From Ignisphaera sp. (GTDB lineage: Archaea; Thermoproteota; Thermoprotei_A; Sulfolobales; Ignisphaeraceae), in contig JAJHQM010000006.1 of the NCBI GenBank assembly GCA_020833345.1, forward strand, positions 1-41,960: 41,960 nucleotides of DNA, given 5' to 3'. A program made the translations under genes and the position numbers. The notes below the pieces were generated by a model. The model was not told the DNA's origin. It did no database searches and saw nothing but the letters and a program-made list of their open reading frames with translations. Positions 19,284-22,542 of the stretch are shown here, in pieces; positions within the stretch are counted from its first letter, which is position 1; every line of letters begins with the position of its first letter.

Positions 19284-19535
19284 TTAACCTGGTGGTAATA
19301 TTAATGAGATTGCTATAAACATAATACCTAGCATGAAGAGTACAAGACCCAGATACTTCACATTCATTCTCCAAAACGCTTTGAATAACTTTACTAAGCC
19401 TACAGTTACATAGTATATTATCACTATACCTATTAAAACTACGCCTAGCCATGCAAATACCCTTGCTAAAACGCTACCACTATTTAATACTACTGAAAAG
19501 TGACTTAGGATCTCAGATAGTGCTTCTACACCCAT
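19284..19535 (-). CDS. Small membrane protein with two predicted TM helices
   Basis: Hydrophobic segments FAWLGVVLIGIVIIYYVTVGLV and YLGLVLFMLGIMFIAISLIL; TATA-like element upstream. Confidence 0.65.
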   Translation of the reverse strand: MGVEALSEILSHFSVVLNSGSVLARVFAWLGVVLIGIVIIYYVTVGLVKLFKAFWRMNVKYLGLVLFMLGIMFIAISLILPPG

Positions 19536-19564: not shown

Positions 19565-19574
19565 TTTTATATAA
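19565..19574. promoter_or_regulatory. TATA-like element placed to serve the + strand sRNA and possibly the divergent small membrane protein
   Basis: ttttatataa; about 25-35 nt from both the predicted sRNA 5' end and the minus-strand ORF start. Confidence 0.5.
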
Positions 19575-19598
19575 TAAAAGTTGTGTGTCTCTTTACAT

Positions 19599-19654
19599 AG
19601 CTATGATGAAGGTTAAAAGCGCTGAAAATATGATGAAGGCCCATAGCTGATAAG
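19599..19654 (+). ncRNA. C/D-box sRNA
   Basis: ATGATGA (19603-19609), 12-nt guide aggttaaaagcg, CTGA (19622-19625), aaat, ATGATGA (19630-19636), 10-nt guide aggcccatag, CTGA (19647-19650). TATA box at a suitable upstream distance. Confidence 0.88.
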
Positions 19655-19689: not shown

Positions 19690-22542
19690 TCAAGTTATTT
19701 TAGAGCTTCCTGCAATGTCTTCCCATGAGATGTTCAATGCTGTAAAGAGTTGTTCTAGTGAAGTTCTCATAGCTTCTAAGTATTTCTGAACATCTATTTC
19801 TGTTATCTTAGCTAGCTGTACGGGCTTTACACCTTCCTTGGACTTCACCTTAATGTATGCAACAACATCGCCTGCTGCCATTTGCATACCATATCTCTGC
19901 AACATTAATGCAGCCTTAACATGCTGAGGTGTACTCTTTTTGTACTCCGATAAAGATTTTGAAAGTGTTGTTTGAAATGCAACCTCATCTAATGTGAGAA
20001 GCCTATGCTTTAGTAAGAGATAGTGCTTTTCAAGCTCATTTCTTATCCTGCTTATAACCTTAAAAGCGTCCTCAGGTTCTTCTATTGTTGAAAGCTCTTT
20101 AAGTATGTATGCAAAAAGTTTCTTTATAAATTCAGGTGTGTTTCTCTTCTTACCAACCATACCCTTAACGTCTATTTCACCATTGGGTAACACGCCTACA
20201 TAATTCTTCTTTAGTGCAGGAAATGCCACAAATTTGTATGTCTTATCAACTTCTAGCTCAAGACCAAATGCTTCCTCAACCCATTTCCTCAATTCATTTA
20301 ATTTCTCCTCATCGGGATTCCACACAAATAACGAGTCTGTATCACCATATAGAACATGTAAACCTAACTCCAGGGCTTTATCCTTGGTAGCAGTTATTAC
20401 CTTTCTTCCAAGGGCAGTAACACTTTCTGCTACTGATGGAGCGTAGAATGAGAAGTTCTCAGCGCCAAACACTCCATAAGCTGCATTAATGAAGACCTTC
20501 ATAGCCCTCTGAACAACATCATACCAACTCCTTATGCTCTCATCAAGACTCTTATCCTTTGCCTTCTTCTTATACAACCTAACTCTGAAGTCCCTAAGTA
20601 ACCCAACAATAGTCGATGTTATACCAGGTCTATCAAGACACACTTGGTGTATTATTCTATTTTGTTCGTCAATAACGTTCTCTACTTTGTTACAGTTACC
20701 GGGCTCGGGATCAATGGTTTCATAACTAAGATTCCACTTCTTCATTATTGACGGATATAGTGAGGCGAAGTCTAATACAGTTACATTAAAGAATATTCCT
20801 TGTGGAGGCTCCATGACTATAGCTCCAGCGTATTTCTTCCCCTTTATTATAGCCTCTGTTACCTTCTTGCTCTTTAAACGAAGTATATCGTCTCTTCTAG
20901 GAATGAGGTATCCTCTCCTTCTATGCTCCCAGTAAAACAAATTCTTTATCCAAACAGAAACCGTAGAGCGTATTAAATCCTCAAGACCAAGCTTACTAAT
21001 ACGCATTAGCAATAGCATGAGCTTCCATACCAATTCATTTGAAAAAAGTGTTAATTCAAGAGTTATTTGAGCATCTCTCAAATTGTACTTAATAAGCTCT
21101 TCTAAACTTGTTTTGCTCAAATCTGTATCAAGCTGTACTTTGCCAATGCCGAGCAATGCTTGAGCAATTGCGTCTAAATTCGTTTCCTTATATTTAGATT
21201 CAAAAGCGTAGACTTGAATTGCTTTATTACTGAAGAACTTATATAAATCTATGTGTAGTGAATTTCTAAACTTCACCTCATACTCAACTCTATTGCCTTT
21301 AATAACCTTCCTAACCTCTATACCTAACAACTCTTTATCAATACCTAGTTTCAATGCTCTACCAAAGAGGTATCTAAAGTCAAAATTATCACCATTGAAC
21401 GATATGATTATGGGATATTGTTGTATTAAGTGCATAAAGTCTAGTATCATGCTTCTCTCATTATCATATATCTCAATTTCAGTGTCTTCCGCAGAGATCT
21501 TCTTATCTACCTTCAAACCCTCTCTATTTAGTACAAAGACTTTCTTCATTCCATCATTTGTAGCAATAGCTATGGCCATTATAGGATATTCTGCTGCCTC
21601 AGGTGATGGAACCCTTCCTTCAAACGGTGTGTAAACCTCTATATCAACAGCTACTCTCTTTGGAGAGAAACCTTTCGCTTCAAATAGTTTAGCGAAGTGC
21701 AACGCTATATCTATGTATTCCTTGGACTTCAGTTCCAGGCTTTTAGTCATATCCTCTAATAGTTTTTTCTCATCTATCCCAGCTTCTTCTACAAAGTTAG
21801 GCCCTGCTGTACTATAAGGTATGCCAGGTATGAGCCTGTTGTCGTAAATGTAGTTTATATGGTATCTTATGTCAGCTTCCCAAGCCTTAGCAACCTTGCT
21901 TCTCAGGTACCTTACAGCAAGAGGATCCTTTGTAACAATTTTTGTAAGGATTCTCTTAGTGTTGTAAAGCGTATCAAATTTTTCGACAAGTTCAACATGA
22001 TCAAAAGAGGTGTGTCCAATTATTTTCTTTATTACATTATCGCTTTGATTGCTAAACTTTTCAATAGGTATGTCAGTTAAGAAGTAGGGCTTATGACCAG
22101 TTCTATCATACAGAAAGAGAAGTTCGTGAGATTTTGGATCATAGAATATTAGTACTGCTTTCTTAGCGTCACCATCGTAATCCACTTGTAATAAATATGC
22201 TGAGTTAATGCTTTCCACAACACTTCTCTTTATGAGAAAAGGCTTTGCCATGGCATTGAGGTTCGTATTTGCTGGGACTAAGACCTTAATTATGGCGGTG
22301 TTTAGAACTTTGTATTCTACCTCTTTCACATCCTCACCAATAGCTTTAGCTATAGTTTGTGTAGAACCCTGTATGCGATCTGCTGATTCTCTTTGTTTAG
22401 ATGCCTCTACTACCTGAGCCTCCTTCACTTCATTGGATTGCTCAGATGCTTTAGAAGTTTCTAGAGTGCTTGCACTCTTTGACGTTGAGCTTTCACGCTT
22501 CATGAACTCTAGCAATGACTTGTTCTTGCTACTCTTCTTCAT
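19690..22542 (-). CDS. Family B DNA polymerase, PolB1 (Dpo1)-like
   Basis: Exo motifs DIEVYT, FNGDNFDFRYL, YNLRDA; Pol motifs DFASLYPSI, KVFINAAYGVFG, YGDTDS; closely resembles crenarchaeal PolB1 around VVQRAMKVFINA...AESVTALGR. Confidence 0.95.
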   Translation of the reverse strand: MKKSSKNKSLLEFMKRESSTSKSASTLETSKASEQSNEVKEAQVVEASKQRESADRIQGSTQTIAKAIGEDVKEVEYKVLNTAIIKVLVPANTNLNAMAKPFLIKRSVVESINSAYLLQVDYDGDAKKAVLIFYDPKSHELLFLYDRTGHKPYFLTDIPIEKFSNQSDNVIKKIIGHTSFDHVELVEKFDTLYNTKRILTKIVTKDPLAVRYLRSKVAKAWEADIRYHINYIYDNRLIPGIPYSTAGPNFVEEAGIDEKKLLEDMTKSLELKSKEYIDIALHFAKLFEAKGFSPKRVAVDIEVYTPFEGRVPSPEAAEYPIMAIAIATNDGMKKVFVLNREGLKVDKKISAEDTEIEIYDNERSMILDFMHLIQQYPIIISFNGDNFDFRYLFGRALKLGIDKELLGIEVRKVIKGNRVEYEVKFRNSLHIDLYKFFSNKAIQVYAFESKYKETNLDAIAQALLGIGKVQLDTDLSKTSLEELIKYNLRDAQITLELTLFSNELVWKLMLLLMRISKLGLEDLIRSTVSVWIKNLFYWEHRRRGYLIPRRDDILRLKSKKVTEAIIKGKKYAGAIVMEPPQGIFFNVTVLDFASLYPSIMKKWNLSYETIDPEPGNCNKVENVIDEQNRIIHQVCLDRPGITSTIVGLLRDFRVRLYKKKAKDKSLDESIRSWYDVVQRAMKVFINAAYGVFGAENFSFYAPSVAESVTALGRKVITATKDKALELGLHVLYGDTDSLFVWNPDEEKLNELRKWVEEAFGLELEVDKTYKFVAFPALKKNYVGVLPNGEIDVKGMVGKKRNTPEFIKKLFAYILKELSTIEEPEDAFKVISRIRNELEKHYLLLKHRLLTLDEVAFQTTLSKSLSEYKKSTPQHVKAALMLQRYGMQMAAGDVVAYIKVKSKEGVKPVQLAKITEIDVQKYLEAMRTSLEQLFTALNISWEDIAGSSKIT

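Follow-up and report, generated by a model that had tools for sequence, protein, structure and literature searches.

The window analysed here is a 41,960-nt stretch (contig C78) of the draft genome of an Ignisphaera sp. (G000; 1.3 Mb in 102 contigs) and contains a 154-nt gap between two minus-strand open reading frames, an 83-aa ORF (19284-19535) on one flank and the PolB1 gene (19690-22542) on the other. This gap houses the motif of a box C/D sRNA on the plus strand, convergent with PolB1, whose core extends over 48 nt from the C box to the D box (19603-19650) and is defined by motif, Rfam alignment and conservation. The core begins with a C box, ATGATGA (19603-19609), and a 12-nt D' guide, AGGTTAAAAGCG (19610-19621), which forms the spacer between the C box and the D' box, CTGA (19622-19625). 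Four nucleotides, AAAT, lead to the C' box, again ATGATGA (19630-19636), followed by a 10-nt D guide, AGGCCCATAG (19637-19646), and the D box, CTGA (19647-19650). All boxes are at consensus on inspection of the sequence, and a TATA-like stretch on the same strand, ttttatataataaaa (19565-19579), centred approximately 30 nt upstream of the C box, is a putative promoter. A previous sequence-only reading had described this layout, its location in a non-coding gap beside PolB1 and a TATA box about 25-30 nt upstream; re-reading matched the layout exactly, and both the gap and the TATA-like stretch were recovered.

The box C/D motif and its conservation

The boxes are ordered within the span of about 50-60 nt that characterizes archaeal box C/D sRNAs, with guide spacers of 12 and 10 nt. 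Under the strict C-D'-C'-D pattern, the window gives a single match and 200 Markov-simulated windows of double length give none, and a pattern of intermediate stringency was found twice where 0.005 occurrences were expected, the second being another sRNA discussed below. The covariance search that had been proposed with the sequence-only reading gave a divided answer, as the archaeal C/D models sR1 (RF01152) and sR14 (RF01145) of Rfam align to the locus end to end at E ~1e-5, but score below gathering (28.5 versus 45 and 27.2 versus 38, respectively), and no Rfam match is returned at the locus at the gathering threshold. The likeness to sR1 and sR14 is carried mainly by the boxes and does not amount to membership. 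These low scores speak for a chance motif without function, a reading of negligible probability that is in effect refuted by the rarity of the motif in simulation and by a conservation that only boxes and D' guide share.

PolB1, recovered from all but one of the order's 119 genomes (118), served as a synteny anchor for finding the sRNA in relatives, and the PolB1 relatives comprise Ignisphaera and other metagenome genomes of the Desulfurococcales. The sRNA adjoins the 3' end of PolB1 in 14 members of one family (Ignisphaera and relatives, the window's genome included). The alignment of these loci displays invariant columns at TGATG of the C box, GGTTAAAAGCG of the D' guide, TGA of the D' box, TGAT of the C' box and the entire CTGA of the D box, while the flanks are unalignable and the D guide is variable. 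The invariant core of the D' guide, GGTTAAAAGC (19611-19620), comprises nucleotides 2-11 counted from the D' box. Two further members of the family (G013 and G076) carry an sRNA with the same D' guide elsewhere in the genome, and this guide is common to families f5, f6, f8 and f9 of the order, where nucleotide 1 beside the D' box varies (G, T or A) and nucleotides 2-11 are fixed. Boxes and D' guide are conserved in relatives outside coding frames; most pattern matches outside the order lie in a coding-like context. The sequence-only reading had named unconserved boxes in relatives among the observations that would speak against an sRNA; they are near-invariant at the 14 loci, and together with the conserved D' guide, the drifting flanks and the recurrence in other families, they strongly support the motif as a genuine box C/D guide sRNA, a small archaeal guide RNA.

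In a family outside the order, three genomes (G385, L260; G345, L261; G395, L262) present a tRNA-Lys(UUU) guide immediately followed by a CTGA, GATGATGA lying upstream of it, and there it looks like the D guide of a different C/D sRNA.

The D' guide and the wobble position of tRNA-Lys(UUU)

In each of the 14 relatives whose tRNA-Lys(UUU) gene was found, the conserved core GGTTAAAAGC is exactly complementary to the anticodon loop of this tRNA, GCUUUUAACC. A search with GGCTTTTAACC gave matches in 15 of 15 family genomes, one of which is the tRNA-Lys(UUU) anticodon loop in 14 of them. The predicted duplex has 10 bp, formed by guide nucleotides 2-11 upstream of the D' box, and places nucleotide 5 of the guide (19617) opposite U34, such that the N+5 nucleotide is tRNA position 34 in the 14 relatives. 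Archaeal C/D RNPs form about 10 bp from a 12-nt spacer, and the geometry of this duplex is thus as expected. In the same register, tRNA-Lys(CUU) has a sole mismatch, C.A, located exactly at position 34, and the D' guide is, by this complementarity, isoacceptor-specific for tRNA-Lys(UUU).

The N+5 arithmetic of the sequence-only reading was correct, and its predicted site, CGCUU*UUAACCU, for which no target molecule was named, departs only in its first and last base from the actual site in the tRNA-Lys(UUU) anticodon loop, GGCUU*UUAACCC. Of the search in rRNA and tRNA that had been proposed alongside it, the tRNA half yielded this anticodon loop in relatives; rRNA was rejected as the D' target, as no match in a scan of correctly oriented 16S and 23S rRNA of relatives reached 7 bp. 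The target is taken from relatives because the window's own assembly, though rated 94% complete, yielded neither a tRNA-Lys(UUU) gene nor 16S rRNA, and its 23S is only partial. The nearest gene to tRNA-Lys(UUU) in this assembly is that of tRNA-Lys(CUU). Matches to GGCTTTTAACC on contigs C17, C30 and C64 were rejected as the genome's own tRNA-Lys(UUU), not being tRNA genes, and a split match on C30 reads instead as a tRNA-Trp with a long intron.

The sRNA therefore most likely directs 2'-O-methylation of U34 (Um34), the wobble base of the lysine tRNA that reads AAA. Guides of this kind are known, as archaeal C/D sRNAs act at position 34 of Pyrococcus tRNA-Leu(CAA), Leu(UAA), Met and Trp, and at U34 of Gln(UUG) in Sulfolobus acidocaldarius (PMC7994747, PMC7668247). 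The present sRNA shares with them the box architecture, the spacer lengths, a guide to the anticodon loop and an N+5 nucleotide at position 34 (PMC7994747, PMC7668247), but differs in that its target is tRNA-Lys(UUU). No mention of a tRNA-Lys(UUU) guide was found in the literature searched, to which the Pyrobaculum survey (Lui 2018) did not belong, so that an earlier prediction is possible; nor did this literature yield work on Ignisphaera sRNAs. The prediction of Um34 is specific and concerns the decoding of AAA and AAG lysine codons in hyperthermophiles.

The D guide and the intron of pre-tRNA-Lys(CUU)

The tRNA-Lys(CUU) gene of the window's genome (contig C26, 26169-26262, minus strand) bears a non-canonical 17-nt intron near position 45/46, and this intron contains CUAUGGGC, complementary to nucleotides 1-8 of the D guide (8 bp). 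Among the 24 tRNA genes and fragments of this genome it is the best match to the D guide, the runner-up being a 7-bp match in a tRNA-Trp intron. For the D guide, the sequence-only reading had predicted methylation of the G in CUAUG*GGCCU, a sequence that has no rRNA site over 7 bp and finds its best match in this intron. Mature tRNA-Lys was rejected as a target, offering just 5-6 bp. Pairing of 7-9 bp between a D guide and the CUU intron of its own genome is seen in eight or nine of 16 genomes from three or four genera, with 9 bp in G082, 8 bp in G000, G088, G106 and G118, and 7 bp in G034, G100 and G024; G112 has 8 bp as well, but its guide is a better fit to a 23S site (10 bp). Guide and intron also exhibit a compensatory difference, with GGCAGGCC/GGCCTGCC in G082 as opposed to GGCAGGCT/AGCCTGCC in G088, G106 and G118. 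The match is absent in G002, G013, G053, G062 and G076, and amounts to only 5 bp in G044 and G069. The second sRNA of the window served as a control, and its guides gave no such match.

In a null model that keeps the intron ends fixed and shuffles the middle, with one genome per genus, the observed sum of 33 bp compares with 16.1 +/- 2.0 expected and is reached by 0 of 20,000 shuffles. Permutation of own versus other introns across genera reaches the observed sum in 0 of 100,000 trials, or 1 of 100,000 without G112, in tests that ignore the tree and followed the spotting of the match by eye. Within genus g1, the permutation gives p ~0.05, or 32/120 with one genome for each of five types, and the shuffled-intron null 3/5000. 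Strong across genera and weaker within g1, the signal suggests that the D guide evolved in concert with the intron spliced out of the other lysine tRNA, and its interaction with pre-tRNA-Lys(CUU) is favoured with moderate confidence.

The most serious competitor, held to be possible yet rather unlikely, is an ordinary C/D sRNA in which the D' guide produces Um34 on tRNA-Lys(UUU) and the D guide is a neutral orphan with coincidental intron matches. In its favour, only one of the two guides of a tRNA-targeting sRNA usually has a target (PMC7994747), seven genomes are without an intron match and the tests within the genus are weak. Against it stand the one-per-genus shuffle, cross-genus permutations that are all at or below 1/100,000, and a register that covers nucleotide 5 in all of the D guides. 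A conventional rRNA guide, with a D guide directed at 16S or 23S and secondary tRNA matches, is distinctly less probable again. The D guide of the window has 7 bp to a conserved 16S site (UGGGCCU) and to a 23S site, in a scan from which the genome's own 16S and part of its own 23S were missing, and 10-bp matches connect the G112 guide to GACCCGGCTC of 23S and the G062 guide to a site in the 23S of G053. In the shared 16S match, however, nucleotides 1-3 stay unpaired and the register moves by one position from one genome to another; the D guides of different genera are entirely different, whereas rRNA is conserved; and the D' guide has no rRNA site that reaches 7 bp. Pairing of the D guide with the CUU intron is preferred to either account.

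Several related observations were made in the course of the comparison. In G002, G053, G062 and G076, and in G139 of family f5 (L195, L228), tRNA-Lys(UUU) and tRNA-Lys(CUU) of the same genome bear identical introns near position 45/46, suggesting gene conversion between the isoacceptor genes; the first four are among the genomes that lack a D guide match. The D guide of G139, where both lysine tRNAs contain introns, pairs at 9 of 10 positions by hand with a mismatch, corresponding to a contiguous run of 5 bp, and was not counted as support. Its introns contain GGCAGGCCTTT, which could form 10 bp with the guide at the D box of G082, a member of another family, and for which shared ancestry or intron transfer is possible. 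The D guide seen in other families, ACCAGGCTT, fits AGCCUGGU in the D-loop of tRNA-Lys(CUU) (G050, G170 and G132), a match that, with the D-loop of this one tRNA compared, is only suggestive.

A proposed two-target mechanism and other C/D RNAs

With the motif, its conservation, its complementarity and the co-variation across genera observed, it is quite probable that the locus is a free-standing box C/D sRNA gene with a D' guide that directs Um34 on tRNA-Lys(UUU) and a D guide that pairs with the intron of pre-tRNA-Lys(CUU); from these data we infer transcription, RNP assembly and methylation. A TATA promoter of its own would probably drive transcription of the gene in the direction of the 3' end of PolB1, and the RNA would, by analogy with known archaeal C/D RNPs, assemble with L7Ae, Nop5 and fibrillarin into a particle with two methylation sites. 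The D' half would generate Um34 on tRNA-Lys(UUU), stiffening the wobble nucleotide in the 3'-endo form, while the D half would bind pre-tRNA-Lys(CUU), such that both lysine isoacceptors would be addressed by one sRNA. Binding of the D guide may result in methylation of the intron, or may open the splice-site hairpin and thereby modulate splicing. The loop of the intron lies within the predicted duplex, which in the window's genome ends directly beside GGA, a putative 3' splice-site bulge in a bulge-helix-bulge (BHB) assigned by hand, and binding could therefore hinder splicing or be undone by it. Relative to the splice sites, the intron nucleotide predicted to be methylated varies in position, which would imply that selection, if there is any, acts on the pairing and not on a single methyl group. 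Functional coupling to splicing is held with less confidence than the interaction itself. The fullest proposal, that one sRNA couples the wobble modification of the UUU isoacceptor to splicing of the CUU isoacceptor through a D guide that co-evolves with, binds and possibly methylates the CUU intron, and that orphan guides more generally may have partners in pre-tRNA introns, is tentative and falls somewhat short of even odds.

C/D guides to position 34 are of a known kind (PMC7994747). A limited literature search yielded no report of a guide that acts in trans and follows the intron of a tRNA. Should the second guide pair with a tRNA intron, target searches on mature tRNAs would miss partners of this type, and such pairing could explain some orphan guides, making the orphan-guide question directly testable. 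Introns of tRNA would likewise gain a sequence-specific partner, and with it a reason for a non-canonical intron to be kept.

In archaeal pre-tRNA-Trp, an intron-encoded box C/D RNA guides methylation of C34 and U39 of its own tRNA. The proposed mechanism resembles this system in linking a C/D guide, a tRNA intron and wobble methylation, but the intron would here be the partner of a separately encoded guide and would reside on the other isoacceptor. The window's genome contains a tRNA read as CCA (Trp) on contig C30 (31259-31394, minus strand; L154), with an intron of ~60 nt that bears C/D-like boxes and resembles the known intron-encoded C/D RNA of archaeal tRNA-Trp. The same intron also includes CTATGGG, which the D guide matches over 7 bp.

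The second box C/D sRNA of the window is located on the minus strand (17042-16978) with the layout ATGATGA-14-CTGA-...-ATGATGA-11-CTGA, ends 4 nt from the stop codon of enolase and has an AT-rich palindrome between its D' and C' boxes. At least six relatives (L052, L053, L054, L056, L059 and L064) have similar sRNAs spaced comparably from PolB1, and the D' guide of the second sRNA has 9 bp to 23S sites of the ACGCCTCGG type in G053, G044 and G062.
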